A DNA stretch of 64,000 bases, from positions 1 through 64,000 of the forward strand of contig JAKQVC010000132.1 in assembly GCA_029571985.1 (NCBI GenBank), read 5' to 3'. Positions 2,518 through 25,999 of the stretch are shown here, piece after piece. How positions within the stretch are numbered: position 1 is the stretch's first letter; each line of letters begins with the position of its first letter. Below the pieces are notes generated by a model. It was not told the DNA's origin and made no database searches. It saw only the letters and a program-made list of their open reading frames with translations. The DNA is from Bacteroidota bacterium (GTDB lineage Bacteria > Bacteroidota > Bacteroidia > Chitinophagales > BACL12). The translations under genes and the position numbers were made by a program.

Positions 2518-2593
2518 TTTTGGGGTGGATTTAAAGAAATATGGATAAATAGCACCTAGCTAAAGTTGCAGAGCGCCACATGGGACAGCTAAA

Positions 2594-2690
2594 TTCTTTC
2601 AAAAAATGTCAATAAATTAGCCACGAAACTATTCAAATTCTGCATAAAAGTGTTTATATTGCGTTTATTTTAAAATTTTGAAACTGAGCA
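2594..2690 (+). repeat. Conserved leader in front of orphan Rhs tip 1
   Basis: This 97-nt stretch ends at the orphan's ATG and aligns without gaps to 4390-4486, also 97 nt and also ending at an ATG. By eye about three quarters of positions match. The best-kept part is around AAAGTGnTTAnATTGCGTTTATT. A shorter version precedes orphan 3 on the minus strand. It may hold a promoter or be part of the mobile or duplicated unit. Confidence 0.7.
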
Positions 2691-4195: not shown

Positions 4196-4389
4196 AACGG
4201 GCGGTAATTTGTCTAGTGGAGTCCTGCATTTACGGACCCTATTTCCACATTAAAATGGCCCTAGCAGGTAAATCAACAATGTTTAGGTGCTGGCTTTGTC
4301 ACATTTTGATTTAAGGTGCTGGTCCTTTTGTATTACTCCTCAAATTCTAGACCAGAAGTTTAGTTAAATAATGATAAGAGGCTACTAGA

Positions 4390-4486
4390 TTCTTCCAAAA
4401 ATGGCCAATAATTTAGTGACAAAACTATTCAATTTATGCAAAAAAGTGCTTAAATTGCGTTTATTATAAACGTTGGAAACCTGGTT
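4390..4486 (+). repeat. Conserved leader in front of orphan Rhs tip 2
   Basis: Second copy of the 97-nt leader (see 2594-2690), ending exactly at the orphan's ATG. The sequence between the end of the preceding gene (4195) and this leader shows nothing I can name. Confidence 0.7.
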
Positions 4487-5302: not shown

Positions 5303-5730
5303 TGAGAAGAATAATATTTTCAATAATACTTTCGAGCATTTCACTATTAACCTATGCTCAGACCATGAATAGAATTAGGATTGAACATGTAGGAGAAATG
5401 GACAAACCTTTCCCCATTATTGAGCTATATTCAGACAAATCGGAGATAGTAAATACCCAAACTATAACAGAAATGCTTACTATGGCGGATAGCTCTGTTT
5501 TTTCAAAAGTCATTAAATATTTTGATAGCGAATTTGTTGGAATGATGGTATCTTCTGACTTTGAGTATGGGACTTTTTCGGTGTCATTTTTTGAGGGCAC
5601 GGAACTCCGCAAGCAAATTTATTTAAATAAAGAAGGAGCAATTTATTTGCTTGTCAATTTGCAAACATACATTTTTGAAGGTGAAGAAAATAAGATTGCG
5701 CTTCAAAGCATGGTTAGAAGATTACTCTGA
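5302..5730 (+). CDS. Small exported protein; likely immunity partner of orphan tip 2
   Basis: I start this gene at the ATG at 5302, which overlaps the TGA of the orphan tip; a GTG one codon earlier is possible. The protein has 142 residues with a signal peptide (MRRIIFSIILSSISLLTYAQ). The mature domain mixes short strands and helices (FPIIELYSD, VFSKVIKYFDSEFVGMM, FSVSFFEG) and ends in MVRRLL. I do not recognise a family. Coupled translation, small size and export all fit a periplasmic immunity protein. The last 9 bases overlap the end of the convergent regulator remnant. Confidence 0.82.
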   Translation: MRRIIFSIILSSISLLTYAQTMNRIRIEHVGEMDKPFPIIELYSDKSEIVNTQTITEMLTMADSSVFSKVIKYFDSEFVGMMVSSDFEYGTFSVSFFEGTELRKQIYLNKEGAIYLLVNLQTYIFEGEENKIALQSMVRRLL

Positions 5731-6267: not shown

Positions 6268-7173
6268 TTACTTTCTTTTACTAAGTTCGAAATGTGTTGC
6301 GTGTTTCGTTGACACTTCATGAAAAAAGCCGGACTTAATTGCTCGTTGATCAGCATCACTATCCTTACCCATTTCATTTGTTTGCGAGCCGGTTTTTGCG
6401 GAACTATAGGAAAATCCAAGTCTTTTCATCGCATGACCCCATAAATAGTTACCGGCATCCATTGCATTGTAGGCTGTTGAGGAAGATTCGAATAAATAAA
6501 AGTCTCCGCGAGAATCATTATTACCTCCACCTGGCGATCCTCCGAGCTTGACGCCATAATCCATTTTACCATGGCCTCTTGCATCCCTACCAGATTCGGT
6601 TGCAGCAAAATAGGTGCGTCCGAAGATTCCTCTCCAATAAATGTCAGTTTGTTTCATGATGCTGTTTATCTCTCGGTCTGAAATAGTAGTTATTGCTTGG
6701 TCTCCTTCATCTAACGATTCAAGTTTAAATATATCAATTCTAGAATCATTAAACTTGAAGTACCTATCTCCAATGAAATAGTTAACGCCATTTTCGTCTT
6801 GTTTAAGTTCTCCTATTGCTCCCCAAAGCCCAGCTTCATCTAAATTAGTGACATCAATAAATTCACCTTTGGTATTAAACCTATAGATTGTATCTCCAAA
6901 AATATCCGTATTGATTATCGGAGAATTTTCAAAACAAGCATAATATGACAAGGAATTATTTGGTTTTAGGTCAATGTTCCACCTTCTCCCTATTGTTGAT
7001 GAATAAACCCAAAATTTAGCACTATACAAGACACCAGTTTGATAAACTTCATCATCTTTCTCTTGCGTATTAAACCCAAACCTATACCCCTCCGCACTTC
7101 CAGCCTGCCAATTTCTATTCGGCATTACCATCCCGAACGGATGGTGCTGTGAAATGACTCTATTAGTAGGCAT
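6268..7173 (-). CDS. Orphan Rhs tip 3 (possible Ntox44-like toxin domain)
   Basis: This 301-residue protein starts with a leader like those of the other orphans (MPTNRVISQH), then HPFGMVMPNRNWQAGSAEG, RFGFNTQEKDDEV and a degenerate Rhs core (STIGRRWNIDLKP, SPIINTDIFG near residue 93). The C-terminal domain contains GHGKMDYGVKLGG, DAGNYLWGHAMKRLGF and DADQRAIKSGFF. These Asp-Ala-Gly-Asn and Gly-rich motifs recall bacterial toxin domain 44, a putative nuclease family, but I cannot confirm this without a profile search. The gene is on the opposite strand to the main Rhs gene, and its first 74 coding bases after the leader almost match that gene. Confidence 0.87.
   Translation of the reverse strand: MPTNRVISQHHPFGMVMPNRNWQAGSAEGYRFGFNTQEKDDEVYQTGVLYSAKFWVYSSTIGRRWNIDLKPNNSLSYYACFENSPIINTDIFGDTIYRFNTKGEFIDVTNLDEAGLWGAIGELKQDENGVNYFIGDRYFKFNDSRIDIFKLESLDEGDQAITTISDREINSIMKQTDIYWRGIFGRTYFAATESGRDARGHGKMDYGVKLGGSPGGGNNDSRGDFYLFESSSTAYNAMDAGNYLWGHAMKRLGFSYSSAKTGSQTNEMGKDSDADQRAIKSGFFHEVSTKHATHFELSKRK
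7069..7142 (-). repeat. 74-nt inverted repeat with the full-length Rhs gene (copy in orphan 3)
   Basis: Reads on the minus strand as the same sequence as 24999-25072 on the plus strand, with 4 mismatches in 74 nt by eye. The longest exact runs are 26, 20 and 18 nt. Codon phase is the same in both genes, with CCG of PFGMVMP a codon in each. It includes copy 3 of the 24-bp junction (7119-7142). Confidence 0.9.
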
Positions 7174-7232
7174 AATTACGTTTCAGAGGTTCAAGAATAG
7201 CGCAATTTAAGCACATTTTTACATTTTTTGGG
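7174..7232 (-). repeat. Conserved leader in front of orphan Rhs tip 3
   Basis: On the minus strand this reads ATGTAAAAATGTGCTTAAAT, then TGCG and a GAAAC motif before the ATG. It matches the leaders of orphans 1 and 2 in their central part, with a one-base gap. Confidence 0.6.
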
Positions 7233-7721
7233 ATAATTTTAATACTAATTTACACAGCATAGAGCTCTCTAAATTAGGTGGCCCACCGTAAAAATCAAAT
7301 GCCATTCGTCAGAATTTGTTTACAATGTTGCCAAAATTATTACAAACTGTTGATTATCAATAATTTCTATATTGAAAGCTTGCATATATAAATGCTGATT
7401 GTTGTCACAAATGAATAAATTTCTTGGCATTTTCTCAGCTTATTTGTATTAAATTGATCATATTTCTTTGAAATTATTTGGAAATTTAAAATATAGTTTC
7501 TTAAATTTGGTTACATGTAGATTCTTTTATTAAGATACTGCATCGATAATTCTTTATTGACCCATTCAAAACACAGTTATGCAACTTCCAACTCCCAAAC
7601 CGAAGGTAGAGCCACTCAACGCAGTGGCCAGCTAGTTTAACATTTGGTATACCTTTTATCTATTCTGTTTAATTATTCAAGTGCTATGCGGTAGTAATTC
7701 GTATCACTGTTTAGAATAATA
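7233..7721. other. AT-rich gene-free region upstream of the Rhs operon
   Basis: About 490 bases without a supported gene. It must hold the promoter of the operon starting at 7722 and lies inside the putative invertible segment. I see a small hairpin GCCACT-CAACGC-AGTGGC near 7611-7630. I see no promoter with convincing spacing. Confidence 0.4.
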
Positions 7722-10049
7722 TTGTTAATATTTTTTGTTTTGTTTTCGATACTTTGTAAACATATCGACAAAGGCTTATTGCTATATGCAACAGTAATTA
7801 TTATTGCATGCTTTACTCATAATATTACTCATGCCCAAACAATTAATGAAGATTCTATTATCAACGTGAGTGACTCATTAACATACAATTTACCTATCGG
7901 ATTTGACTCAACGTCAATCAGCAGTACATTGGACAGTATTAGTCAATTGAATTCGCTTGCCAATGAATCTTTGAGAATTTTAGATATGGATAGTTTATTA
8001 CCACTAAATGGGGCTAGGATGCAGTATCTATCGGCTTTCGACTCCCTTCAAACAGCGAACTTTTTCAAACAGAAAATTGGTCAATATAATCTCCCCGATA
8101 TAACTCTGGGTGCCTCTATAGCATACTTACCCATTGTTGATTCTCTATATCTTGAGCCGGGGATACGTAAGAATTATTGGATAAATATTTCACCAACAAT
8201 TATGCAGCTTCCGGTAAACTTTACTCTCGCTTCGGGAAATGACATTACCTATTTCGATAATCAGTTTAGCAACCCTATTATGTTCAATATTGGTTTCGAT
8301 TTCCATCAGTATGTATCGAATGTACAACAAGACTTATTATTAAAGTTTGAACATCAATCATCAGAGCTAATTAATGAATTTGAAAATATCACTTTTGAAG
8401 ACTCTTTAGCCTTGTTTGAACAAGCTAAAGACACTTTAGCAAATTTCTCATATTTATCTTACGTAAATAAATTGAAAGAAGAAAGGGCCTTGTTAGGCGA
8501 TAGTATTAATAATTGCTTATCGGATGATACGAGTAGAATGGCAACCATTGATTCTGTAATTGAGGCATATAATCATTATAGAGAGCAATTTAATCGTCTG
8601 GCTGTATTCCAAGAAAAGTATTATACCCTTAAGGCTGAATATGAAAAATATCAATTACAAATCTTAGAAACGTCAGATAAATTATCCTCGGCTGGTCCTG
8701 AAGATTTAATAGCAACCGCCGAGAATCTTGGTCTATCTACAAATTTACCCAAATGGCCGTTAAATTTTAAGCGCCTCTCTTTTGGGCCCCAGGTCATTAA
8801 TCACACACCAATGACTTTTCAGAACTATATTTCAAATGGTGTAGATGTTCGGTATAATAAAGCCGATTTAATATTAATTGGAAACGTTCTCATTCAACAA
8901 TGGCCAGCCGGTTACAATGTTGCTCATGTTGATTCCATATTAACTCCCACAAACCCAAATACACAAAAGGCCTATATTGCAGGAGTTGGATTTGGTGATT
9001 TAGATAGTAGCCATATACTATTTACGGCAGCATTTGTCAAAGAGGAATTAAACTCAGGAGGCGGAGGTGGTGAATATCGAAATTTACTTTTGTCGTTTTT
9101 CCAAACCCAGGAAGTATTGAAAAATCTGAATCTTACCTATGAGGTAGCGACATCACAGTTAAGTTTAACCCCCGAAATAGCAGATTCCGTTGCGTTACTT
9201 GGGATTGCCGACAAACTCGGATCCTATCTCAAACTTTCATATTCTTTGCCAAAAACACAAACTACAGTTTTAGTCGATTACGCCCTTGTTGGACTCAACT
9301 ATATAAGCTTTGGAAATATATTTAGTCAACCGGGCACTTATAATGCCGGTATAGGTTTTACACAAAATGTGTTTAATGGAAAGTTCTCCATTAATTACAA
9401 GTATTTGCTAAGTCAAACTCTCCGAGAAAACTTCATAGATTACACTACCGCATACCACACATTGAGTTTAGACTATAAACTTTGGAAATGGGGTTCAGTT
9501 AATTTGACAATAGTTCCGTTTCAATACAATTATTCCTTAGACAGTGAGCCCTCCACTCAAATAAGCTCAGTATCAAATCTCATAACTTCGAACTTAATTG
9601 TAAATTTCCCAATTAAAGCATCGCCAATTGTATCAATCTTTAGCTATTCCAACTATGCAACTCAAAGTAGTGTATTAGACACTGTGTTTTTTTTGAAAAT
9701 AAATCAAATATCTAATAATACAATAGCTAGTTTAGGAGGAAAGCAGGTGCTGTTTAATGCCATGTACTTTATACCTGGAAATGATTATTCTGAGTTTAAT
9801 ATAAATAACGCAGAGTTAATGATTGAGGTATTTAGCAAAACGTCAATCCAAATGCATACGGGCGTCAGCTTTCTTGATTTTGCGCAGTATAATGATCAGC
9901 TAGGAGGCAGTTTAAATCTAAACCTTACCCTAGGCAAATTACTTTCTTGGTCGCTCATATTAGATAGGTATTTTGAAGTTGAACGCTCCAAGACAAACTA
10001 TTTCTCTAATATATTTTTTAACACCGCTATATCCCTCACCTTAAATTGA
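7722..10049 (+). CDS. Predicted outer-membrane protein opening the Rhs operon
   Basis: This 775-residue protein has an N-terminal signal peptide: hydrophobic LLLYATVIIIACFTH and an Ala-x-Ala-like THAQ near residue 39. A helical, probably coiled-coil region follows (about 200-325; many Glu/Lys/Leu, for example KAEYEKYQLQILETSDKL). A long beta-rich part (about 340-775) with alternating aromatic and hydrophobic residues suggests an outer-membrane barrel. No ATG precedes the signal peptide: the open frame begins at TTG 7722, so the true start is uncertain. It is the first of seven genes spaced 0-6 nt apart. I do not recognise the family. Its position suggests a dedicated export, anchoring or assembly partner for the two giant Rhs proteins. 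Confidence 0.82.
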   Translation: MLIFFVLFSILCKHIDKGLLLYATVIIIACFTHNITHAQTINEDSIINVSDSLTYNLPIGFDSTSISSTLDSISQLNSLANESLRILDMDSLLPLNGARMQYLSAFDSLQTANFFKQKIGQYNLPDITLGASIAYLPIVDSLYLEPGIRKNYWINISPTIMQLPVNFTLASGNDITYFDNQFSNPIMFNIGFDFHQYVSNVQQDLLLKFEHQSSELINEFENITFEDSLALFEQAKDTLANFSYLSYVNKLKEERALLGDSINNCLSDDTSRMATIDSVIEAYNHYREQFNRLAVFQEKYYTLKAEYEKYQLQILETSDKLSSAGPEDLIATAENLGLSTNLPKWPLNFKRLSFGPQVINHTPMTFQNYISNGVDVRYNKADLILIGNVLIQQWPAGYNVAHVDSILTPTNPNTQKAYIAGVGFGDLDSSHILFTAAFVKEELNSGGGGGEYRNLLLSFFQTQEVLKNLNLTYEVATSQLSLTPEIADSVALLGIADKLGSYLKLSYSLPKTQTTVLVDYALVGLNYISFGNIFSQPGTYNAGIGFTQNVFNGKFSINYKYLLSQTLRENFIDYTTAYHTLSLDYKLWKWGSVNLTIVPFQYNYSLDSEPSTQISSVSNLITSNLIVNFPIKASPIVSIFSYSNYATQSSVLDTVFFLKINQISNNTIASLGGKQVLFNAMYFIPGNDYSEFNINNAELMIEVFSKTSIQMHTGVSFLDFAQYNDQLGGSLNLNLTLGKLLSWSLILDRYFEVERSKTNYFSNIFFNTAISLTLN

Positions 10050-10055
10050 AAAATA

Positions 10056-11132
10056 ATGAGAAGCAAAATTATTCTATTATTCCTTGGACTCTCATTCTCT
10101 CTGCTGAAGGGCGAAATAGTAGTCTCTTTCTATCCTGTTAATTCTTTAACATTTACGCAGAATCAAATGTGGGATTTTGGCCTTTTAAACACGGATAAGT
10201 TGCCTGTGCAGTCTAGTATTGAAGTTTCTGTGCTTAAAAACGGGTCATTTCTCATAGCCAGCTCTAAGCTTCTTAACATTACGTTAGTAAAAGGGTCTAA
10301 CACAATTACTTATGCACAGCGAGCGTCTTGCATTATTACCTATGGTGCAGGTGAAATTAGTGCAAGTTTTAGGTCGACAAAAATTTTACCCTCCGGAGAT
10401 TATGCACTCTGTGTTACAATAAAAAACGATATCGGGCAGGTAATCGGATACTCATGTCAGGAAATGAGCATAAATACATATACTCCACCCATGCTTACTT
10501 ATCCTTTGGATAACGCAATTCTAGTATCTAATACACCAAACTTGACATGGATTCCAGTTATGCCAACGGGACTGGGTACTGTTTCTTACAAACTTGAACT
10601 TTGGACTGGAAAAGGTGATAACAATTTTAAAGTAGCGGGAAACTTATTTGAAACAACAACGACAACCCCAAGCTTTCAGTATCATGCAAAATTGCCACCA
10701 TTAGAAATTGGTAAGACATATACCTGGATGGTGAGTGCCTTTTTAGGCGAGACATTTTTGGGAAGCACTCAAATATGGCACTTTTCAATTGGAAACCAAG
10801 ATGTTTACAGAATGACCAGCGAGGAGGAGAATTCCTATCGAGTTATTGGTGACCAAACACAGAATGCTGAATATTCGGCTATATCCATATTAAAAATGTC
10901 TTACAATAATATAGCAAATGATTCGATTCTTTCTTATACCATATATCCTGCTGATTATCAGGACAGTGCGATAACCGAACTGCCGGAAATAATTTTAAAA
11001 TCAGGTATCAACAATATTGATATCAATCTCTCTGAAATTGAATTATTTACTGAAGACCAGCGATATACACTAGAAATTTCTGATGGGAATTTAAGGAAGT
11101 ACTATTTTAACTTTATTTATTCTGAATTATAA
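10056..11132 (+). CDS. Exported protein with fibronectin-III-like domain
   Basis: This 358-residue protein has a signal peptide (MRSKIILLFLGLSFSLLKG). Residues 20-145 are beta-rich, ending in SYTYTPP-like linker sequence. Residues about 148-248 resemble a fibronectin type III module (PNLTWIPV, YKLELWTG, LEIGKTYTWMVSAFLG, WHFSIGN). A further beta-rich domain follows. It begins 6 nt after the outer-membrane protein and its stop abuts the next start. It has no sorting signal. A structural or adhesive accessory of the exported Rhs complex is likely, but no function is known. Confidence 0.82.
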   Translation: MRSKIILLFLGLSFSLLKGEIVVSFYPVNSLTFTQNQMWDFGLLNTDKLPVQSSIEVSVLKNGSFLIASSKLLNITLVKGSNTITYAQRASCIITYGAGEISASFRSTKILPSGDYALCVTIKNDIGQVIGYSCQEMSINTYTPPMLTYPLDNAILVSNTPNLTWIPVMPTGLGTVSYKLELWTGKGDNNFKVAGNLFETTTTTPSFQYHAKLPPLEIGKTYTWMVSAFLGETFLGSTQIWHFSIGNQDVYRMTSEEENSYRVIGDQTQNAEYSAISILKMSYNNIANDSILSYTIYPADYQDSAITELPEIILKSGINNIDINLSEIELFTEDQRYTLEISDGNLRKYYFNFIYSEL

Positions 11133-11729
11133 ATGAAAATATTAAAGTTTACGATATTGGTTTTCGCTTTCCAAGCATGCACTAACAATGCACAATTGGA
11201 TTTTATCGAGGCGACATCGTTCTTAGAAGATGAAGATAATGAGGTAAGAGTCACTAGAATAGAAGATTCAATTCAATTTGAACTAACATATATTCCGGTG
11301 GAGATAATTGCATTGCAAGGGTCCGGCTCAGTTGAAAAATACAAAGACCAGTATCCTTCTATTTTGTCTGATTATAACGAACTTGAATACTATAAGCTCG
11401 TTATCAGCTCATTGAAATCATCAACAAGATCGCATTTGATGGGTCAATTTACAGGTCTGTCTGATGAGTCAGATGCATATTTGGATTTGCTTATTCAGAA
11501 AGACATCTATTTTTTAAGTAATGCAGATACAATAAGATGTGCCTATATGCATAAGGAGGTATCTGAAAGTATAACCAATCAATTGAACTATACAATCGCA
11601 TTTCCATTCTCCGCTGTTACTCGCAAGGATAGGACAATCGAATTGAAAAGTCAGTTTATGAATTTTAGAAATATTCGGTTTGTAATAACCGAAAATAGTA
11701 TACAGTCTATACCGAAAATCAAAATTTAG
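11133..11729 (+). CDS. Lipoprotein of the Rhs operon, unknown function
   Basis: This 198-residue protein has a lipoprotein signal with Cys 16 (LVFAFQAC). The mature region mixes acidic helices (SFLEDEDNEVRVTRIED) and strands and has no motif I know. It starts at the base after the stop of the fibronectin-like gene and ends 6 nt before the giant shell gene, so it is certainly part of the operon. As a lipoprotein it could tether or fold the complex at the outer membrane, which is inference from position. Confidence 0.82.
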   Translation: MKILKFTILVFAFQACTNNAQLDFIEATSFLEDEDNEVRVTRIEDSIQFELTYIPVEIIALQGSGSVEKYKDQYPSILSDYNELEYYKLVISSLKSSTRSHLMGQFTGLSDESDAYLDLLIQKDIYFLSNADTIRCAYMHKEVSESITNQLNYTIAFPFSAVTRKDRTIELKSQFMNFRNIRFVITENSIQSIPKIKI

Positions 11730-11735
11730 TCTGCT

Positions 11736-14700
11736 ATGAATAATAGATCATTCAGAAGAAAGGTTGCAATCCTATTACTAGGATTAAATATTTATCAATG
11801 TGCGTATCCGACAATCGCATTTGCATTGACCTCTGGCCCTTCACAGCCTGAAATGCAGCAGTTTAGCCCTATTGGAACATCTGATATGGTTGATTTATTT
11901 AGTGGTGACTTTCAATATAATATACCACTACTCGATGTTGAAGGGTATCCCATTAATATTTCTTATGCATCAAGTCCGGCCATGGATCAGGAAGCCAGTT
12001 GGGTAGGTTTAGGTTGGAATATTAATCCGGGACTAATCAGCCGAGATGTACGTGGAATTCCTGACGATTTTAAAGGAGAAGGTATCACCACAGATTACTC
12101 GACTAAGGATAATATTACAATCGGTATAGATTTGGGTGGAACTATTGAATTGGCAGGCTTTGATTTGCTAAGTCCGAGTTTAGGTGGTGGTATTTATTAT
12201 AATAATTATCAAGGGTTTGGCATCAACTATGGCTTAACTTTTACTACCGGAATCGCCGGTAACCTGACAGCTGACCTGGGTTTAAATTATGATAGCCAAA
12301 GTGGAGTTGATATCAAACCAAGTATTGGGTTTACCCAAGAAATTAACAATTTAAATAAGCGGAGTTTTGACCTTAGTGCCGGAATAAACTCTCGTCAGGG
12401 AATGCAATATATGGGTTTAAGTACATCAAGAAGCTACTCCCATATGTATACAAAAACCTTAGATGATGGCACTGAAGTAGAAAAACAATCCGCATTTAGT
12501 AGTCAACCTGGAAATTTAACCGGTAGTGTTTCCGTAAACTTTAATTCTCCAGTTCTAGGTCCATCATTGTCAAATCCGACGAAAAACTATTCTTTTTCAT
12601 TCAGACTTGCAGTTGGAGCTGAAGCTTTCGGAACATTTCCAGACGGATATGTTTCTGGTAATTTTTATCGTGAGTATGTGGCGGATAATACTGTTTCAAC
12701 AGCAAGCTATGGGCAAATGTATTCGGAAGTGGGTGCAGCTGATGAAAATGCTGCTCTTGATTTTGCCAGAGAAAAGGATATAACGGTGCGAAAGGAAAGT
12801 AAAAATTTAGCCATCCCATATGCCACTTTTGATGTGTTCAACATTATGGGCCATGATGTAGGTGGCTCTTATCATATTTCAAGAAATGACGTAGGAGTAT
12901 ATCGCGATGCCTACACCGAAAATAGTGGCTTCTCTGCATCTGGTGGACTTGATTTTGGCGCTGGTGCTGTGCTTGATGTGGGGGCAGACGTTGACGTATC
13001 GGCATCATCTACAACTACTTCCGGTTGGACAGAGGATAATCTTTTTAAAAACTTCAGCGCATTTACCAACAATGGCACCGAACCCTTATACGAGCCATAT
13101 TATTTCAATAATGCAGGTGAAGTAATAGTAAAAGACCGGACACTATATGATAACACGGGTAAGTCGAAGGCTTCACGAGTAGGACTTGATAAAATTGGAT
13201 CGACCTACCTGGCAAAGAACCTGTTAATTAATCAAAATATAGATGGTGGGGGTTCAATACAATGGGTAGGTGGTACTTTAAGGAATTTGGAGCGTGTAAA
13301 ACGTCAACAGGTTTTTTCTACACTAAATGCATATGAAGCTTCACAATTTGCGGTTACAAAGAACTTAGAAAGTTATGATATGAATACAATTACCTGCTCA
13401 AAAACCGAAATCGGCAGGTTGAATTGGCCTTCACATCATATTTCAGAAGTAACAGTTACTAAAGGTGATGGTATGCGGTATGTATTTGGCATTCCTGCAT
13501 ATAATATTTCCAAACGTGAAGTGACATTCAACATTGAGGGTATGGCGATGGTCGATGGATTGGTTACCTATTCACCCACTGAGGATGCCAGTTTTGCAAA
13601 TGAAAGAGGGAAGGATCATATGTACAATGCGCAAAGCACTCCTGCCTATGCACATAGTTACCTACTAACAGAGGTGTTGTCAGCTGATTATGTTGATAAC
13701 ACAGGAAATGGCGTTTCACCTGATGATAGAGGTAAAGCCTATAAGATAAACTATACACGTGTCCATGACAAATTTGCATGGCGAACGCCAATTGAGGAAG
13801 ACAAGGCAACCTTTTCTAAAGGTTTAAATTCTGTTGATAACGATGACAAGGCAAGTTATGTTTTCGGCGAAAAAGAAATATGGTTGACCCATAGTATTGA
13901 ATCAAAAAACATGGTGGCTATCTTTTTTCTAAATGAGGAAGGTAGAAATGATGCCTTAGGTGTTGTTAATGAGCATGGCGGTAAAAACATCGCTAAAAAA
14001 TTATATAGCTTAGATAGAATTTCACTTTACTCAAAGGCTGATTTGCAGGAAAATGGTGCAAATGCAACTCCCATAAAAACAGTGCATTTTGAGTATTCTT
14101 ATGACTTGTGCCAAGGTGTACCAAATCAAGTGAATACAGCCTATGGAAAATTGACCCTAACCGGATTATATTTTACCTATGGAAATAGCACAAAAGGAAA
14201 ACTAAATAAATATAAATTTCATTACGAAGAGGCTGATTCGGATCTAAATCCCGATTATAATAGTCAAAATTATGACAGGTGGGGAACTTATAAAAATCAA
14301 GATGACAATCCAAGCTCGTTATCAAACGAAGACTTTCCTTATACTATTCAGGATACCGCATTAGCCAATGAGTTTGCTGCGGTTTGGAGTCTTCGAAGTA
14401 TAGATTTGCCATCCGGTGGAACTATTGAAGTTACTTATGAGTCAGACGACTACGCCTATGTCATGAATAAGCGAGCCGCTCAAATGTTTATAATTGATGG
14501 CTTCGGAAATAGCCCCACAGCTACTCCAAGTAATAAACTTTATGACGATGGACCAAATAACTATGTCTTTTTAACTGTTCCAGTATCAGTTAACAATGTA
14601 GATGAGTTACAAGAGTTATATTTAGATGGATTAAATCAATTATATTACAAATGTTTTGTTGATGTGAATCATGACGGAGGATATGAATATATTACAGGAT

Positions 14701-17700
14701 ATGCTCAAATCGATAGTTGCGGCTTGGTTGGAGCTGGACCGACTGACGAGATTTGGATAAAACTTCAAAATCCATCCTTTTTGGATGAAGACGAAAATCC
14801 AATCGCCTATGCATCATGGCAATTTTTGCGCTTAAACATTCCAGAAAAAGCCTATCCGGGTTCGGACCTGGATGAAGCAGATGCAGAGGACTACATTTTA
14901 GCAGTCGTAGGTATTTTCCCTTCCTTATTTGAAATGATTGTCGGATTTAATAATGTGGCTAAGATTTCAAATAAGGGCAAGTTAGTAAATACCGGTCATT
15001 CATTTATTCGGCTAAATAATCCAACGTTTCAAAAGCTCGGCGGAGGTTCAAGAGTGAAAAAAATTGTACTTTATGACAATTGGAATAATATGGTACCAAC
15101 CCAGGAAACATTCCAATATGGACAAGAATACAGCTATACAAAGGAGGAAAATGGACGAATAATTAGTAGTGGTGTTGCAAGTTATGAACCAGTAATTGGT
15201 AGAGAAGAAAACCCATTTGTTGAACCGCTTTACTATGAAGAAAAGAAATTCCTGGCACCTGATAACACCTACTATGCAGAATTACCTTTAGGTGAATCCT
15301 TGTATCCAAATGCAAGCGTTGGTTATAGTAAGGTTACAGTTAGAAACCTGCAATATGATAATGTAAAAAGAACTGCTACCGGTTATTCAGTATCTGAGTT
15401 CTATACAGCTCGTGAGTTTCCGACAATTTCATATTTCACCAATATTGAGGTTGCACCAATTAAGCCAAATCCTATCCTTAAAATATTAAACCTCGGCGTT
15501 CAAGAATCCTTGACTGCTTCTCAAGGTTTTGTAGTTGAGACCAACGATATGCATGGCAAGCCAAAATTTGAGGCAGTTTATAATGAGATGGGAGCGCTTA
15601 TTTCTTCTAAAAAATATGATTATCAGGTTGATGATCCAAATGCTGAACAGTTACACTTGAGTAATAATTGTTCAGTTGTATATGCAGATGGTTCAATTGA
15701 CAATCAAACTATTGGCATGGATTACGACCTCTGGCAGGATATGCGCCAACAAAAAACTAACGTGTTGGGTGGAGGCGTGCATTTTAACAATGAATTTGTG
15801 TTTCTATTCTTAGGCGTTTTCCCTTTACCTAGCCTGTATCCGTCCTTAAAATCATCTGAAACTATGTTTAGGTCAAGTGCCACGACAAAATTGATAAAGC
15901 GGGCAGGAATTTTAAGTAAATTAACGGTAAACGAGAACGGGTCTGAAATATCTACAGAAAACTTATTATATGACGCGGAAACAGGTCAGGTAGTGCTAAC
16001 AAAAGTTACAAACGAATTTAAAGATCCAATATATAAATTCACCTATCCTGCACATTGGATTTATGATGGAATGGGGCCTTCCTATAGAAATATCGGCGCT
16101 GAAATAAATGGCATTAGTATTATTAACGGATCAATCGGCGGCATAGACCCAAATCCATATTTAGTGCCAGGTGATGAATTAATTGTATTTGACGAGGAAG
16201 GCATTATGGATCCCACGAGGTTATATGTCATCAAACCAGCTTCATTGCGTATAGTGGATAAGTTTGGAAGGCCATTTACTAAATATTTACCAGGCACAAC
16301 AGATATCGATTATGATGCAAAAATTAAAATAGTTCGTTCAGGAAGAAGGAATATGTCAACCATACCGGTTGGAAATTTCACATCCTTAGAAACGCCTGTA
16401 AATAATCTTACAGATTCTTTGGATATTGGGGAGGCTACCAAGTTGTTAAGCGCTGATGCTACATTGTATTCTGAGTTATGGAAGATAGACAAAGTTCAAA
16501 CCGCAGCACCATGTGATACTGTGACAGCCCCTTCCAGTGAATGCTTAGCTGCTTTGTTAAATGCGTTGTTCAGTGCCGATTTGTATGATCTCGAGTCTGC
16601 TGATTCATTAACAGTGAACGAAATTTTGGACTCAGATTCTGCGAGTTGCGCTCCACTAGAATCAGGCTGGGGCGATGAATTTGTATATCTTATTACACCT
16701 CCAATACCTGCGTATAATTTTAAAAGCATACCTTCAGGGGTGTCGGTGACGCTACCAGCTTTTTATACACTTCAGTATCAATTGGGTGATTGCATTATTA
16801 CGTTAGATAAGAATGAGTATCTAAATTCTATTTGTCCACCATATCCCTTCCCTTTCACAGGGGATATCGAATTTTCTGTTGATGGCGGTACGGGACAAGT
16901 TGTTTTTGATTATGGTGGACCGGCTTTTTCAAACGTTCCCGGTTGTGCAGATGGAGTTGTAAACATACAATGTATTTCCTGCGAAGATGAATGCTTAACT
17001 ATGATTCCAGGTGATACCATTAATCCATACGTGTATAATATCCTCGGTGTATGGCGTCCGGTTAGAACATACGCATACCACACCTTAAGAACTCCTGATT
17101 TATCAGAAGAATCAGTTGATATACGAACTGATGGGGTTTATGAAGATTATGACCCTTTCTATAGTTATGATATGGGTTCCGACAAATGGAATATAGATAC
17201 CGCCAACACACATTGGATTTGGGTTGAAGAAAGCAAACTATTTGATAAATATGGTAATGCAGTTCAATCAAAGAATGCGCTAGATATCCATTCTTCTGCC
17301 TTATATGGATATAACAAGACTTTGCCTGCTGCAGTCACCTCCAATGCACAATTGAAGCAAACAGCCAATGATAATTTTGAAGATTATGATTTTGATATAA
17401 GTTGCAATAATGGCATAGGCCAATGTAAGTCTTCTCATTTTAGTTTTGAAAATTCTTTGATAGAAGATTCGGTATCAGTTTCCGGGGATGAGTACCATTC
17501 TGGCAATTATTCATTAAAAATTGTACCGAATGCTGCCTCTGTAGTTACAAAGGATATATTAAACCCAAGTGGTGAAATAATAGAAACTCTCGATGCGAAC
17601 AAATATGTATTAGGAGACGATCCATTCATTCCCGAATTCTCTCCAAGTGAAGGCTCTTACCTAATCAGTGGTTGGGTTATGGTTGATACAGTATGCAATT

Positions 17701-18098: not shown

Positions 18099-18104
18099 TA
18101 GAGC

Positions 18105-18818
18105 ATGAATCGTACAATATTGATAGCTTTTTTATTTCTGAACTTTGGCTTGTCAAGTTTCGGGCAAACTCCGATGCAGGTTATGGAAAAAATCATACAG
18201 GCATATCAAACAAAGGAAACTTTGTCCTATTATGGCAAATATAAATACTTTGAAAATTTGACCTCGACCAAACCTACCGACTCCTTAGAATCCTATATTG
18301 TAATGTCAGATTATAATATGTATTTTAAGATTGCTGATTATGAAATTGTAGGAGGGAAGGATTATAGTGTATTTACGGATAATAAAAAGAAGCAAATAGT
18401 GTTAGAAACCAGGCAGGAATCAGAAGGCCGCAAAAAGGATTTAAACTTTCTTTCTAATTTATTGACAACAACCGGTGCTTCAGTTTCCGCGTATAAAAAC
18501 GATAACTCTATCAATGCCATTACCATAGAGTATACGAATCAATCTATTACAAGAATTGATGTGTTTTACAATCGAAGCAACTACTATGTAGAAAAATGCA
18601 TTATCCGGTATTTGGATCACATAGATAGCAAATCCGGCCAACCTGTATTTGTGCGGCTGGAAATAGAGTATTTCAATTTTGTAAAAACTGAAAAAGCTGT
18701 CGCTCCAGAATATACAATATCAAAGTATATTCAGCTTAATAAAAATAAAACATTTAGTGTACAAAATACTTATGCCAAATATTCACTGGTTAACCTAACT
18801 GAGCTTAAAAAGATATAG
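18105..18818 (+). CDS. Exported LolA-like protein of the Rhs operon
   Basis: This 237-residue protein has a clear signal peptide (MNRTILIAFLFLNFGLSSFG, then Q). The mature part starts with a helix (MQVMEKIIQAYQTKETLSYYG) followed by many antiparallel-like strands (YIVMSDYNMYFKIADYEIVG, AITIEYTNQSITRIDVFYN, VFVRLEIEYFNF). That order is typical of LolA/LppX-like lipid-binding folds, so a LolA-like fold is my best guess, not a firm call. It sits between the two giant Rhs genes with 6-nt and 2-nt gaps, which suggests a chaperone or assembly role for them. Confidence 0.8.
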   Translation: MNRTILIAFLFLNFGLSSFGQTPMQVMEKIIQAYQTKETLSYYGKYKYFENLTSTKPTDSLESYIVMSDYNMYFKIADYEIVGGKDYSVFTDNKKKQIVLETRQESEGRKKDLNFLSNLLTTTGASVSAYKNDNSINAITIEYTNQSITRIDVFYNRSNYYVEKCIIRYLDHIDSKSGQPVFVRLEIEYFNFVKTEKAVAPEYTISKYIQLNKNKTFSVQNTYAKYSLVNLTELKKI

Positions 18819-18820
18819 TT

Positions 18821-21800
18821 ATGAGAATCATATCATCGCTTATATTACTCATTTCGAGTTGTTTTATTTGCAAATCGTTGAGTGCAAATACCGAGCAATA
18901 CTACGGAGAGAAAATTGGTAGTTCTTTCAGAGTTGATAGTATACTCATTGTACGTGATGATAAATTTAATACGCCTGCATGGAGTACAATTGATACAAAC
19001 ATCAGCGCCCATGATTTAATTATATTTGAATTAAATGATGATACAACGTATATTCAATCAGTAGCATTCACATGCGATGTTACTTTGAAAATCGAGTACT
19101 GGGACTCAACCAATACTTCATTTATCATTTATAAGACACTTTCAATTGCTTTCGATCCTGGTGATGTTAAAACTTATAATGCCAGAGCAATATTTGCGAT
19201 GGAGGATGCTTATAAACTGAAATTGACTATTCAGAATATAAATTATGTTCAGACCGGATGGGGCGGCACTTTACCTCCTGTGTTCCGGTTGCGTGCGGAG
19301 ATTCATATTGAACGGAAATATTTATTCGATTGTCAGGCTGTACTTGATGCTATTTCCAATGTTAGTACTACCAAAGGTTTAATAAATATTGCCTGGGATG
19401 AGGTTGACGGCGCTGAGGAGTATGATTTGGAGTGGACTTATTATCATGATAGCAGCGAAGTAATTAAGGATTACTACCTGGATACAACCGATGTTTATTC
19501 AAATTATAATTCTTTATTTAAGCATAATGCAACACGAGTAACTATAGTGGATAATCAGTATCAGGTACCAAATGTTTATGAAGCTGGATTTTTGTTTTAT
19601 AGGATTAGGGCAATTCAATATACTGCTGATAGTATTCGATTGCAAACACCGTGGATTACAGAGGGTTATTCAGAAGAGTTTTATACTTATGAATATAAGG
19701 AACGTTTAACCGGTCATGAAAATGACCTGAATTGGCAGTTTGCTGTTCAATTTGCTGAAGAAGGCAAGAGAATTCCAACAGTCAACTATTTTGATGGAAG
19801 CCTAAGGTCTAGACAAACAGTTGTGAGAAGTGAATCTATTGAGCGAGTAATAGTTAGCGAAACTCTCTATGATCATCAGGGTCGTGCTGCAATACAGACT
19901 ATTCCGGTTCCTACAGAAGATACGAATGCAAAAATTAAATTTTATACTGCATTTTCCATGAGTAATTCTACTTTGGAATATACAAGAGACACTTTTGATA
20001 TTGGCACATGTGATTTCGTGGTTCCGGCAATGGATTCAACTTATGGCGCAGCTGAATATTTTTCAAAGAATAACGCAAATTGGAATTCGCCAACAGGGGC
20101 TTGGATACCAGCAGCAGACGGCTTTCCATTTAGTGTTACGGAGTACACACCAGATTTGACCGGTAGAATAAAACGTCAGACAAATGTTGGTGCTGCTTTT
20201 AAGTTGGGAAGCGGAAAGGAAACTAAGTATTTCTACGGGCCAGCTGGCCAAACTGATTTGGATAGGGTTTTTGGGAACGAAATCGGCTTGAACGAGCACT
20301 ATTGGAAAACTATGGTTGTAGATCCAAATGGCAGCATTTCTGTAAGTTATACTGATGGGTCAGGTCATGTTGTTGCAACTGCATTGGCAGGTGAGGCCCC
20401 TTCAAATTTAACAGAGCTTAGTTCTAATACAGGAGCTACCACGGTTTCAACCGATTTGCTGGATGTCGCCCCGATAGTAGGTACCGATTTCCTGCAATAT
20501 GATTATACATTGTTGGTTACAACAGCAGGTACCCATGATTTTTCTTATTTACTCGGTTACTCAAATTACAACCCAGACTGTATCCCAATAGAATTAGATA
20601 TCTGCTTGGATTGCCTATATGATATTGAACTTGAAGTTACAGATTTATGTGGCAACGCTACCCTACCGGGAGACACTGCCCATTTATTAGCCTTGAAAAA
20701 CTACAGCCCTGGGGATGTTTATAATACAGAATGCTCTGGCAGAATCGCCCACGAACCAACATCAGCTGAATTTTCTTTGTATTTAGATATTGGCGAATAT
20801 CATGTAAAAAGTTTTATTCAGGTAAGCGATGCTGGAAAGGAACAATATCTTGATACCCTACTTAGTAATGATACCTGCATTTTAACTTACGATGATTTCT
20901 TGGAATCGGCAATTGCGGAGTTAGATTTTAGCGGTTGTAATATAACTTGCGAAGATTGTCTGGCTGACCTTGGTGAGCGTGATTCCTTTATAGATAATTA
21001 TATCAGTGATCTTCTGCTCGCCGGTATTGACACTATTGGTATGGATACCATTCAGGCAGATAGTATTTATTCTGAGTTACTTGCAAATTGTGATGTTTTA
21101 TGTGATACCATTGTAACTGAATGCGAAGCATTATATGCGGCCATGATTGCTGATATAAGTCCGGGTGGTCAATATGCCAAGTATTCAATAATTGGTGGTG
21201 TTTATACACCAGCAAGTGTATCTGTTTTAAATGCAGCTAGTACTGATTTTGCAGATGATTTAACATTTGAGGATTTAACTTATCTAGATGCGTATGGTAA
21301 TCCGGACCATGTGATGGTTGGCGGAATTTCAATCACACCAGATGACCTTACCCTTGAGCAATTTATTGAGCTGTTTCCGGCCCATCCATCCTGGGCCAAT
21401 TCGCTCGTAACTCTTCACCCGGAGTATTGTGCATACGAATGGTGTATGGAGAATGAAGAAAGTTATGATTACGCAGCGGATATGTTGGCAACAGAAACAT
21501 ATGTGGATGCGGAAATCAAAGGATATTTGAATCCACTGAATAATGCACCCGTTGTGTATGATTTTTTAAACTATGATCCATTATTTGAAACCGGCGGTGT
21601 GGGAGATGATTACAAGGATGACATGGAGAATGATCTTGAAGATTGGGAGTTAAGCGGCTATTCTGCTTGGGAGTTAGCCACCATTTCCGCTAATTGTCCT
21701 GATGACCCAGGGTCTTGTACTACTGATTCCATCGACCAGCATTGTCCCGGTAATGCACTTGTGGGTTGGACTGTTTTCAGAGGATTATATCTGGCAAAGA

Positions 21801-24800
21801 GAAGTTATTACACCTACCAGCTAATAGATGCTGAATGTGGATTAAGTGCATTAAATATTGGCGTAGACGGAGCATTTGCAAGTATGCAGCGCAGAGTTTT
21901 GTATTATGATGACGTTATGGCACTTGATGGCGGGGCTGACACAGAGGCCGAGTTTTATGCTTATTCAGATACACTTATGAGTGAGATGTGCGAAACAAAT
22001 TGTGAAGCCATGGCTGATATGTGGATGTCTTTGCTTGGTCCATGCACTGATGGTATTTCAGCCGGGGCCTATGACTCTATTCGGGATGGATTAATCGAAG
22101 TCTGTATCGCCGGTTGTGATTCCGTGCATCCATTTGGAGCTTCAGATTTATTGGGCGCGCCCGTACCTGTTACCCCTTCCGGTTACACCAGTTTTCAAGA
22201 TGTCTTAGAAACGGTCCTCGGTATTGCTCCTGGTGATACAGCCTGCAACGCATTATTAATCGATTTCCCTGACCCTTACACCGCTCCATCAACCCCATAT
22301 AATGAAGTGTTTATGGGCGATTTTCAGGATGATTGTGTATGCGATAAATGGAATGATATTTACACCAATGATTACGTTCCTGATTCTTCATCCTATGAAT
22401 CATTTGCTGATTTCTTAAGTATTCATTATGAAAGTGTGCTCACTGAAGAAGTGGTTGATGAAATTATGGCTGTATGTGCTGACGCAAACTGTCTTTTTAC
22501 AACACAAGTCGTTACGCTGCCTGCAGGCTTGTCATGTAAACCATGCATCCCTTGTGGACAAGGGTTGATGGAAGTGTACAATGATTTCTTTTTAGTGGAT
22601 GGGTATCCAATGGGAGGCTTTGAAAATTACGAATCTACCCTTGCCTCTTATCTTAACGCAGAGTATGGATATAATTTACCTTACTGGGAATGGAAAGCAT
22701 TTTTGGACAGCTGTTTAGTTGATTCGTTAGCAGTAGTTGCTGGAGATACTTGCGATGACTTTAGCAGAGACTTTGATGATGTACTGTGCGACCAGGCACT
22801 ATTTACTAGCCTGCCAATTGACACAACAGATTGTTATGACTACCTGATGGCGATTGCAGAGGCTAATGCTACTATGATGTATGCCAGTTATGTTGATTCA
22901 CTTGAAAATGCCTGGTGGGCCGAGTATACCGCGCATTGTCTTGAATCAGCATATTATCAAGATTTTGACGTGGAACGTCCAATGAATGAATATCATTATA
23001 CCTTATATTATTATGATCAGGCCGGTAATTTAGTGCAAACTGTACCTCCACAAGGTGTTGATATGTTGGATGGGACGGAGCAAACAACGCAAGCTACCTA
23101 TAGAATGGATGGCACAGGTTCTCCCCAATATCCGAATCATAATCTTGAAACTCGATATTATTATAATACACTAAACCAGTTAATTAAACAGTATACACCA
23201 GATGGTGATACTACCCTGTTTTGGTATGACCGTTTAGGCAGAATTGTTGCCTCGCAAAATGGCAGACAAAGACCGAATGACCAATATTCGTATACCAGAT
23301 ACGATGCATTAGGTCGCATCATTGAAACCGGTCAGTTAGAGAGCAGCGAAGACATGACATTTGCCATTGCCATGGATAATGCTGATTTACTTGATTGGAT
23401 AGACTCCGGTACACCTAAAACCGAAGTAGCCCAAACATACTATGATAATGCAGCCTTACCCGTGGATATACATTTTGTTAAAGGTGAACAGTCGCGTTTA
23501 AGAAACCGGATAGCTAGTGTCACTTGGGAGCTTACCTATGATGGGGATTCACTCACCTATGATTATGCTTCGCATTATAGTTACGATATTGCCGGTAACG
23601 TGCACAGCTTGGTGCAGGAATTAGGAGGCCTAAGAGGCACCGGTAATGATTTTAAACGAATAGATTATGAGTATGATCTTATAAGTGGAAAGGTAAATCA
23701 GGTTTTATATCAGCCGGATTCCGCAGATCAATATTTTCATGAATATTTATATGATAAGGATAACAGGTTAGCTACAGTTTTGACCAGTCGTGATGGCTAT
23801 CTTTGGGATTATGACGCCAATTATCTGTATTATATGCATGGTCCACTAAGGAGAACAGAAATCGGTGAGCGCCAGGTGCAAGGTATGGATTATGCCTATA
23901 CTTTACAAGGTTGGCTTAAAGGGATGAATAGTGAAGGTCGAGACAAAGACAAGGATATGGGTCTGGATGGTAAAAGTAGTGGGTCTCACAAATGGTTTGG
24001 TAGGGATGCAGCAACCTTTGTATTGAGTTATTTTAATGCAGATTACCGCCCGATTGGTTCGGCAAGGTTTACCGCAACATTTTCTCCAACTGCAGGTTTT
24101 GGAGCCAGCAGCCCTTCTTTGTATAACGGAAATATTCGAAAAGCTACCTATAGTATTGAAAACTTAACAGAACAGGTGATAGGATATGCATATCAATATG
24201 ACCAGTTAAACCGGTTGATTGGAATGGATGCTTGGCTCAATTTTAGTGCCGGATCTTATAACTGGCCTGGAAGTGGTAGCGCTTCAAACAAATACAAGGA
24301 ACGGGTTACCTATGATGCAAATGGTAATATCCTCACCTATATCAGGCACGGTGGCAGCCCTGCGCCAATGGATAGTCTCACTTATGCGTATTATGCCAAT
24401 ACAAACCAATTGAAGCGTGTTGATGACATATCAAGTTCATATACTGAAGACATAGATGACCAGTCCGGGGATAACTATGCCTACGATGCAACGGGGAACT
24501 TGATAGAGGACGTTGCGGAGGAAATAGAGATTATTTCATGGACATTGATGGGTAAAATCGACAGCATAGGCCGCACCTCAACCAGCACTAAGGCTGAACT
24601 GAAATTCTACTACGATGCCATGGGCAATCGAGTAGGAAAAGTGGTATATGATGGCTCAGATACCATAAAAACGTGGTATTTTAGGGACGCACAAGGTAAT
24701 ATCATGGGCACCTATGTTGAACAATCGGATACTTTGCGCTGGACAGAACAACATATCTATGGTTCCAGTCGTTTAGGTTATTGGCAACCCGACTCTGTTA

Positions 24801-25999
24801 TGTATCCTAAACCTACACTTGTTACCACCGATACAACAAGGTACCACCTTCGTCACGGGGATAAACGGTACGAAATTGTTAACCACCTGGGTAACGTACT
24901 TTCTGTCATAACCGACCGTAAAATTCCTAAGGAAACCGGCACACCAAACGGAGTTGCTGACTACTATTCCGCAGACATTTTTAGTGCTCAAGATTACTAT
25001 CCGTTCGGGATGGTAATGCCGAATCGGAATTGGCAGGCTGGAAGTGCAGAGGGATATAGGTTTGGGTTTAATGGACAGGAGATTTTAAGTTCAATTAATG
25101 AATCAAATTCTTATCATGACTTTGGTAATAGGATTTACGAATGTAGAATCGGTAGGTTTCTAAGTATTGACTTGAAATCAACTGAGTCCCCAGGTATTTC
25201 ACATTACACATATGCATCAAATCAACCAATAGCCATGGTAGATTTAGACGGAAACGAGAATGTGATATATTTAGTATTAACGGCTAAATCCAAAGCTGCT
25301 TTATCTCAAGCAGATGTTGAGTCTATCGCAGCCCAAGCTAACCATTATTTTGAAACTCTGGGTTTAGCTACAAGAATTGTAATTTATGACGAGGTAGCAA
25401 ATGGCACTTTTGATATGTCCTATATTGACAAAAGTGATGCTGTTGCCTTAGTTGCAACTAATATTGAAGATGCGATTTCCTTTACTACAGACAACCTGAA
25501 TAAGAAAACTGGCAAGGCATTTAGAAAAATTTGGGATCGTAGCCAAAGCAAGAAACAATTAGATGCTATAATTAGAGAATATGGATCATTTGAGGAATTC
25601 CAAAAGACTAACCCCGATGTGCTAAAAAACATTTCAGAAACCAATTTCGAGGTGGGTGATATTTCTAAAAATCAAGTAATTGCATTGAATATCGGATATA
25701 TAAATGCCGAATCAAATCTGTTTAGCACCGAGGAAACCACATATGATGCAGCAGGATTTATAATTCTTCATGGCAAAGGACATCTAATCCAAAAAGTTAT
25801 TGCTCATGTTTCCAATTCTTTTATGACAGATGGAGCAGCCTATTCGGAAGATTACAAAGGTGGTTTAATTGAATGCAGAGATGAATATCTAAATACTCCA
25901 GAATCAAAAGAAATTGCGACCCAAATGAGATCTCAAGAAGGCGGCAATGAAGCTAAATCAATTGATAACTATAGTAAAAACAAATCTAAGAAAAATTAA
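18821..25999 (+). CDS. Full-length exported Rhs protein with exchangeable C-terminal tip
   Basis: This 2392-residue protein has a signal peptide (SSLILLISSCFICKSLSA). Residues 30-380 are beta-sandwich/fibronectin-like, leading to a typical Rhs start (NYFDGSLRSRQTV). A Cys-rich section spans about 590-1380 (CLDCLYD, NITCEDCLADLGERDSF, CKPCIPCG). YD repeats cover about 1380-2050 (YYYDQAGNLVQ, FWYDRLGRIVASQN). The Rhs core runs from YYPFGMVMPNRNW (about 2060) through RIGRFLSIDLK to MVDLDGNE (about 2145); the usual DPxG is here DLDG. The tip (2146-2392) is unknown and contains ILHGKGHLI with HGKGH at 2317-2321, a zincin-like spacing lacking the Glu. There is no T9SS domain. Confidence 0.92.
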   Translation: MRIISSLILLISSCFICKSLSANTEQYYGEKIGSSFRVDSILIVRDDKFNTPAWSTIDTNISAHDLIIFELNDDTTYIQSVAFTCDVTLKIEYWDSTNTSFIIYKTLSIAFDPGDVKTYNARAIFAMEDAYKLKLTIQNINYVQTGWGGTLPPVFRLRAEIHIERKYLFDCQAVLDAISNVSTTKGLINIAWDEVDGAEEYDLEWTYYHDSSEVIKDYYLDTTDVYSNYNSLFKHNATRVTIVDNQYQVPNVYEAGFLFYRIRAIQYTADSIRLQTPWITEGYSEEFYTYEYKERLTGHENDLNWQFAVQFAEEGKRIPTVNYFDGSLRSRQTVVRSESIERVIVSETLYDHQGRAAIQTIPVPTEDTNAKIKFYTAFSMSNSTLEYTRDTFDIGTCDFVVPAMDSTYGAAEYFSKNNANWNSPTGAWIPAADGFPFSVTEYTPDLTGRIKRQTNVGAAFKLGSGKETKYFYGPAGQTDLDRVFGNEIGLNEHYWKTMVVDPNGSISVSYTDGSGHVVATALAGEAPSNLTELSSNTGATTVSTDLLDVAPIVGTDFLQYDYTLLVTTAGTHDFSYLLGYSNYNPDCIPIELDICLDCLYDIELEVTDLCGNATLPGDTAHLLALKNYSPGDVYNTECSGRIAHEPTSAEFSLYLDIGEYHVKSFIQVSDAGKEQYLDTLLSNDTCILTYDDFLESAIAELDFSGCNITCEDCLADLGERDSFIDNYISDLLLAGIDTIGMDTIQADSIYSELLANCDVLCDTIVTECEALYAAMIADISPGGQYAKYSIIGGVYTPASVSVLNAASTDFADDLTFEDLTYLDAYGNPDHVMVGGISITPDDLTLEQFIELFPAHPSWANSLVTLHPEYCAYEWCMENEESYDYAADMLATETYVDAEIKGYLNPLNNAPVVYDFLNYDPLFETGGVGDDYKDDMENDLEDWELSGYSAWELATISANCPDDPGSCTTDSIDQHCPGNALVGWTVFRGLYLAKRSYYTYQLIDAECGLSALNIGVDGAFASMQRRVLYYDDVMALDGGADTEAEFYAYSDTLMSEMCETNCEAMADMWMSLLGPCTDGISAGAYDSIRDGLIEVCIAGCDSVHPFGASDLLGAPVPVTPSGYTSFQDVLETVLGIAPGDTACNALLIDFPDPYTAPSTPYNEVFMGDFQDDCVCDKWNDIYTNDYVPDSSSYESFADFLSIHYESVLTEEVVDEIMAVCADANCLFTTQVVTLPAGLSCKPCIPCGQGLMEVYNDFFLVDGYPMGGFENYESTLASYLNAEYGYNLPYWEWKAFLDSCLVDSLAVVAGDTCDDFSRDFDDVLCDQALFTSLPIDTTDCYDYLMAIAEANATMMYASYVDSLENAWWAEYTAHCLESAYYQDFDVERPMNEYHYTLYYYDQAGNLVQTVPPQGVDMLDGTEQTTQATYRMDGTGSPQYPNHNLETRYYYNTLNQLIKQYTPDGDTTLFWYDRLGRIVASQNGRQRPNDQYSYTRYDALGRIIETGQLESSEDMTFAIAMDNADLLDWIDSGTPKTEVAQTYYDNAALPVDIHFVKGEQSRLRNRIASVTWELTYDGDSLTYDYASHYSYDIAGNVHSLVQELGGLRGTGNDFKRIDYEYDLISGKVNQVLYQPDSADQYFHEYLYDKDNRLATVLTSRDGYLWDYDANYLYYMHGPLRRTEIGERQVQGMDYAYTLQGWLKGMNSEGRDKDKDMGLDGKSSGSHKWFGRDAATFVLSYFNADYRPIGSARFTATFSPTAGFGASSPSLYNGNIRKATYSIENLTEQVIGYAYQYDQLNRLIGMDAWLNFSAGSYNWPGSGSASNKYKERVTYDANGNILTYIRHGGSPAPMDSLTYAYYANTNQLKRVDDISSSYTEDIDDQSGDNYAYDATGNLIEDVAEEIEIISWTLMGKIDSIGRTSTSTKAELKFYYDAMGNRVGKVVYDGSDTIKTWYFRDAQGNIMGTYVEQSDTLRWTEQHIYGSSRLGYWQPDSVMYPKPTLVTTDTTRYHLRHGDKRYEIVNHLGNVLSVITDRKIPKETGTPNGVADYYSADIFSAQDYYPFGMVMPNRNWQAGSAEGYRFGFNGQEILSSINESNSYHDFGNRIYECRIGRFLSIDLKSTESPGISHYTYASNQPIAMVDLDGNENVIYLVLTAKSKAALSQADVESIAAQANHYFETLGLATRIVIYDEVANGTFDMSYIDKSDAVALVATNIEDAISFTTDNLNKKTGKAFRKIWDRSQSKKQLDAIIREYGSFEEFQKTNPDVLKNISETNFEVGDISKNQVIALNIGYINAESNLFSTEETTYDAAGFIILHGKGHLIQKVIAHVSNSFMTDGAAYSEDYKGGLIECRDEYLNTPESKEIATQMRSQEGGNEAKSIDNYSKNKSKKN
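24999..25072 (+). repeat. 74-nt inverted repeat with orphan tip 3 (copy in the full-length Rhs gene)
   Basis: Partner of 7069-7142 on the other strand, 70 of 74 bases identical by eye and in the same codon phase. It includes copy 4 of the 24-bp tip junction (24999-25022). Recombination with the orphan copy would invert about 17.9 kb. Confidence 0.9.

Follow-up and report, generated by a model that had tools for sequence, protein, structure and literature searches.

The way in which an Rhs toxin exchanges its variable C-terminal tip has been unsettled since 2009, the year in which homologous recombination was put forward and it was expressly stated that no integrase was known for Rhs. The question is raised again by a locus on contig JAKQVC010000132.1 of the metagenome-assembled genome GCA_029571985.1 (Bacteroidota bacterium; GTDB Bacteroidia; Chitinophagales; BACL12), of which we analyzed positions 1-64,000 of the forward strand, a stretch of 64,000 nt referred to as the window. 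Here a full-length Rhs gene with an RHS-repeat shell and an Rhs_assc_core before the variable tip (DUF6443, RHS_repeat and TIGR03696 all above cut-off) is accompanied by three orphan tips and a tyrosine recombinase gene. On the basis of a recombination site, its reading frame, its fixed homology border, matching spacers and the association with the recombinase, all computed directly, we consider it very probable that the locus is a site-specific, recombinase-driven C-terminal tip switch of a polymorphic Rhs toxin. Genomes, contigs and loci are given under our own G, C and L numbers.

An original prediction made on this DNA had pointed to 74-nt inverted repeats at 24999-25072 (+) in the full-length gene and 7069-7142 (-) in orphan 3. 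These arms are indeed identical at 70 of 74 positions, lie in the same codon phase as claimed (YPFGMVMPNRNWQAGSAEGYR and HPFGMVMPNRNWQAGSAEGYR, both in frame) and extend without gaps to 24996-25082 and 7059-7145 with 78/87 identities. No other strong inverted pair connects orphan 3 with the main Rhs gene; the two arms are 17,850 nt apart. The prediction took all 74 nt as the repeat unit; the working site is narrower, a core measuring about 23-27 bp; the remainder is a linker shared by the tips. It also overlooked that orphans 1 and 2 begin with the identical 24 nt, ATCCGTTCGGGATGGTAATGCCGA, in + orientation, and that identity between shell and orphans changes abruptly at the site, from about 0.2-0.3 upstream to about 0.95 from the site onward. 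Genome-wide the 21-nt core is found in four exact copies, all at the window locus, and in one copy with one mismatch on contig C121; chance is excluded as the source of the repeat. The core TTACTATCC-GTTCG-GGATGGTAA encodes YYPFGMV and consists of imperfect inverted arms around a 5-bp spacer, with 8/9 arm positions pairing. A leader of about 110 nt containing an in-frame ATG is common to all three orphans.

The likely engine, likewise missed before, is the tyrosine recombinase encoded at 1474-2517 (-), which adjoins orphan 1, is divergent from it and lies about 200 bp from the orphan-1 site. Its fold is beyond doubt. It carries the R-K-H-R-H-Y catalytic set of tyrosine recombinases (alignment columns, Pfam), and the residues R182, K209, H290-x-x-R293, H316 and Y326 are invariant in 19 aligned clade members. 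Homologues were sought in the order, in one large family and in the phylum, which gave a clear clade with about 39-71% identity. A homologue search of the genome_contigs set returned a single, remote recombinase. In the window's own genome the recombinase has one homologue, 71% identical and located on C121. It too diverges from an Rhs orphan tip, which bears the same site, and the cassette there, made up of the tip and a MORN-type partner, ends in a bare site copy. On C121 (L008) an IS21-type istA/istB pair (12814-15124) adjoins this second tip cassette, and the bare site lies at 15993-16015 with spacer GTTCA. The same-genus genome G003 lacks the recombinase, so it offers no direct comparison for the window locus.

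Across the clade, the recombinase gene has a canonical site no more than 300 bp away at 30 of 43 loci (27 found by script, plus L049 and L084, which are cut at contig ends, and L066 beside a split gene); with 80 sites spread over about 104 Mb, chance predicts about 0.02. Most of the distances fall in the range 96-209 bp. The tip is directed away from the recombinase, which stands where the shell would be. Three loci (L063, L092, L095) have degenerate sites, and at L130-L132 the recombinase is located inside the segment. Ten more distant tyrosine recombinases showed no YPFG motif in windows of about 3.7 kb. At L065, L066 and L099 the recombinases at tip loci are broken by a stop or frameshift; these are perhaps frozen switches.

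The sites themselves differ from ordinary Rhs linkers. Recombinase-linked sites pair at 6.7/10 positions on average, compared to 5.6/10 for the Rhs motif in recombinase-free genomes (p=2e-5), the difference lying mainly in wobble bases, and a bare site that no tip follows (L096) is a perfect 10/10 palindrome, ATTACTATCC-CTTTG-GGATAGTAAT. Strand exchange by tyrosine recombinases requires matching spacers. The spacer varies between species, but at 21 of 23 loci all its copies agree (permutations give a mean of 5.6, and none of 100,000 reached 21), while in the control it matched in 4/28 recombinase-negative genomes. Part of this matching could stem from common descent of the tips at a locus. In 15 of 16 pairs, the identity of shell and orphan is about 0.2-0.4 before the site and, after an abrupt step at the site, 0.7-1.0.

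We found the geometry of such a switch in several arrangements. In its minimal form, shell-site>tipA-immA...immB-tipB<site-recombinase, it is present in four genomes of three genera (G533, G625, G569, G616) with the sites 3.2-4.0 kb apart. In a distant family the recombinase is flanked by convergent sites in three genomes (G887, G836, G1000), G088 combines a shell with three orphans in both orientations, and G624 carries 22 tip sites in two arrays (L097, L098, L116) with one complete and one truncated recombinase. As in shufflons, one short site recurs next to the recombinase in several copies and in either orientation, where constant and variable coding parts meet. About 60 tips maintain a reading frame of about 190-435 aa counted from the site, although a start codon is missing in most orphans, and most of the C-termini show no relation to one another. 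Recognizable C-termini in relatives include lysozyme and PIN domains and some partners are MORN_2 proteins, with toxin and immunity roles putative. The toxin part of orphan 3 has homologues in open Rhs frames of 1471 aa (G195) and 1259 aa (G182), and the tip fused to the shell in G309 corresponds to a parked tip in G624 (74% over 66 aa).

Contig ends in relatives suggest that the switch is in operation. In G325 the end of the shell contig, the end of the recombinase contig and both ends of a tip contig (C7, C3, C13) share exactly 27 nt; the tip contig C13 measures 4,890 nt and has facing tips at its ends with a third tip inside. In G671, an assembly of four contigs, one contig of 1.23 Mb carries the recombinase and one of 3.09 Mb the shell; these two, C2 and C4, break off at an identical base. 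They have a core of 25 nt in common, and the shell frame of 2,767 aa is cut at DYYPFG. The other end of C4 lies in an rRNA operon and represents an ordinary break. The same break pattern was observed in G321, G500 and G135, and a contig of G836 terminates 12 nt beyond the first base of the spacer. Since the shared cores of 25-54 nt are shorter than reads, a break at this position implies reads continuing into both tips. Switching of tips in real populations of the relatives is therefore probable and strongly, if indirectly, indicated by the breaks at the site.

We propose that the enzyme encoded at 1474-2517, the likely catalyst, would act at the short imperfect inverted repeat in the YYPFGMV codons just before the variable tip. 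Recombination of the shell site with an inversely oriented orphan site would invert the intervening DNA, fuse the shell in frame to another tip with its immunity gene and park the old tip behind the orphan leader. In the window the first move would be a 17.85-kb inversion between 24995-25017 and 7124-7146, which would turn the shell towards orphans 1 and 2, so that their sites become inverted partners and reachable. If the directly repeated sites of orphans 1 and 2 recombined, a cassette of tip and immunity gene would be cut out, and excision and reinsertion are a likely side reaction. The geometry had been predicted correctly, with the whole operon and its upstream region moving inside the segment. 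The notion of a shufflon-like C-terminal switch is supported for the family and, by geometry, for the window locus; because only one orientation was assembled, the 17.9-kb inversion in this organism is one that we infer.

Other explanations have to account for the same repeats. Tips might be shuffled by homologous (RecA-type) recombination or slow displacement, with the recombinase as a bystander. Such shuffling is known for Salmonella, where recombination over a 522-bp, 95% identical region has been proposed (PMC3967940); it has also been proposed for Enterobacteria (PMC2935791), and the window arms are identical at 70/74 positions. Shared cores as short as 25-27 bp speak against this, as does a left border that falls on one and the same base even in distant genera, whereas Jackson 2009 reported core fragments of variable length; the near-fixed distance of the recombinase, the matching spacers and the perfect palindrome at L096, where no tip follows, make it quite improbable. 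Rather more weight, although we still hold it unlikely, goes to an integron-like mode in which gain and loss of tip cassettes proceed chiefly through circles, via direct repeats, and inversion is incidental. Tandem direct sites at window orphans 1 and 2, the bare site after the immunity gene on C121 and the long tandem arrays of G624 fit capture; the minimal two-tip loci have inverted sites only, and the contig ends of G325 fit an invertible segment. Both modes may coexist. That the arms merely reflect conserved coding homology of an ordinary Rhs linker without recombination is barely credible: the YYPFGM/L motif is common in Rhs of genomes without the recombinase, but conservation of wobble bases and spacer is specific to recombinase-linked loci, and the recombinase association and the assembly breaks at the site already contradict it.

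Several points weigh against a recombinase-driven tip switch. The contig of the window shows a single orientation, and the breaks in relatives could in part be repeat artefacts, though the cores measure only 25-54 bp. No recognizable site was found near the recombinase at four clade loci (L054, L091, L094, L133). A clade member on Flavobacterium plasmid NZ_CP109997.1 (L147, 18822-19859) stands in an unrelated setting beside secretion/pilin-like genes, with neither an Rhs tip nor a recognizable site, and the clade may serve other switches. Left and right arms showed no significant covariation across sites (219/2000 shuffles reach it), and covariation was not used as evidence. Toxin and immunity functions of the window's tips are suggested by position, weak matches and remote homologues.

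The G segment of phage Mu is a single invertible stretch that holds two alternative C-termini pointing at each other, and the recombinase (Gin) lies just outside. The C-termini face each other here too, but Gin is a serine recombinase acting on tail fibres, whereas our locus pairs a tyrosine recombinase with toxins. The R64 shufflon (PMC3414803) shares a tyrosine recombinase (Rci) beside invertible partial-gene copies split by sites, with a constant N-terminus and exchangeable C-termini; there the tips belong to a pilus adhesin (pilV), here to Rhs toxins with immunity genes on a Bacteroidota chromosome with the site in YYPFGM codons. The likeness to both systems would be one of operation, and we assign the locus to neither family. 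Enterobacterial rhs loci (Jackson 2009; Koskiniemi 2014) likewise combine a full-length Rhs gene with silent tips, immunity genes and tip exchange, but recombine homologously over long core fragments of variable length, in contrast to the fixed border and cores down to 25-27 bp found here. Ornithobacterium hominis, also a member of the Bacteroidota, has an Rhs gene with arrays of displaced tips differing between samples (PMC6421346, PMC13183296); these arrays, which we compared by description only, were described without recombinase, site or inversion, and displacement was assumed. Integrons share a tyrosine recombinase, cassettes with a fixed recombination border and expression of the first position, whereas our locus has a double-stranded-type core inside a coding frame and inversion geometry; with the integron integrase profile the window recombinase scored 33 bits, compared to a curated cut-off of 220. 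The original prediction knew of no Rhs locus working in this way, and our literature searches, with most subscription papers outside their coverage, returned no published Rhs system with its own recombinase, shufflon, DNA inversion or site-specific recombination.

If the switch is real, tip choice would be heritable, reversible and probably frequent within clones, and a dedicated recombinase with an in-frame site would bear on kin recognition, immunity repertoires and the interpretation of Rhs genes in draft genomes. A recombinase-driven switch predicts the positions of contig breaks and supplies a defined site and enzyme.

A further motif lies in the leaders. TCTTTGA (consensus AGTTCTTTGAAA) is located 50-52 nt upstream of the spacer at 22 of 29 recombinase-adjacent sites and at 22 nt at one more, whereas shuffled controls gave 0.4 occurrences at any position; leaders with AGTTCTTTGAAA were seen at L049, L084 and L097, among others. 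In the window the match is degenerate. G671 has the same letters, AAGTTCTTTGA, in its 16S-23S spacer, where boxA is usually located. It is possible, though doubtful, that a dedicated Rhs-tip shufflon extends across the Bacteroidota in which the leader of the parking place behind the recombinase, with its boxA-like element AGTTCTTTGA, would have the untranslated parked tip transcribed, giving immunity without toxin, so that cells stay immune to switched kin. Promoter activity and antitermination expressing the parked immunity genes are hypothetical here, and the motif may alternatively be an accessory recombination site.

Table 1. Features of the Rhs locus in the window.
Feature	Position	Strand	Basis
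Tyrosine recombinase, 347 aa, presumed tip invertase	1474..2517	-	Pfam Phage_integrase 2.1e-9; catalytic residues; clade beside Rhs tips
Orphan-1 leader, in-frame ATG, resembles leaders of orphans 2 and 3	2589..2717	+	Repeats D1, I1; alignment
Orphan tip 1	2691..3599	+	TIGR03696 Rhs core 1.1e-8
Orphan-1 recombination site, spacer GTTCG 2726-2730	2718..2740	+	Core search, site comparison
Putative immunity gene of tip 1	3578..4195	+	Weak MORN_2 match, below Pfam cut-off
Orphan-2 leader	4385..4513	+	Repeat D1, 79% to orphan-1 leader over 178 nt
Orphan tip 2	4487..5302	+	Weak TIGR03696
Orphan-2 recombination site, spacer GTTCG 4522-4526	4514..4536	+	Core search, site comparison
Putative immunity gene of tip 2	5299..5730	+	Position; no match in Pfam scan
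Putative membrane immunity gene of tip 3, 83 aa	6009..6260	-	Position, hydrophobic sequence; no match in Pfam scan
Orphan tip 3	6268..7173	-	Weak TIGR03696; toxin-part homologues in long open Rhs frames elsewhere
Orphan-3 recombination site, spacer 7134-7138, left border of proposed invertible segment	7124..7146	-	Repeat and identity profile
Orphan-3 leader, in-frame ATG	7147..7230	-	Repeat I1, alignment
Operon genes upstream of Rhs shell (775, 358, 198, 2120, 237 aa), inside segment	7722..18818	+	ORFs; no match in Pfam scan
Full-length Rhs gene, 2392 aa; constant shell to ~24995, then site and variable tip	18821..25999	+	DUF6443, RHS_repeat, TIGR03696 1.6e-12
Recombination site in full-length Rhs gene, spacer GTTCG 25003-25007, right border of proposed segment	24995..25017	+	Core search, identity profile
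Putative immunity/partner gene of current tip, 391 aa	26000..27175	+	Position; no match in family scan

Pfam scans assigned no family to the window's tips, and Rfam and tRNA scans of the window gave no matches. Apart from the window locus, and with no recombinase linked to them, the same genome (G000) holds further tips on contig C112 (668-2823, L009) and a second, truncated Rhs shell at the start of contig C14 (L157).

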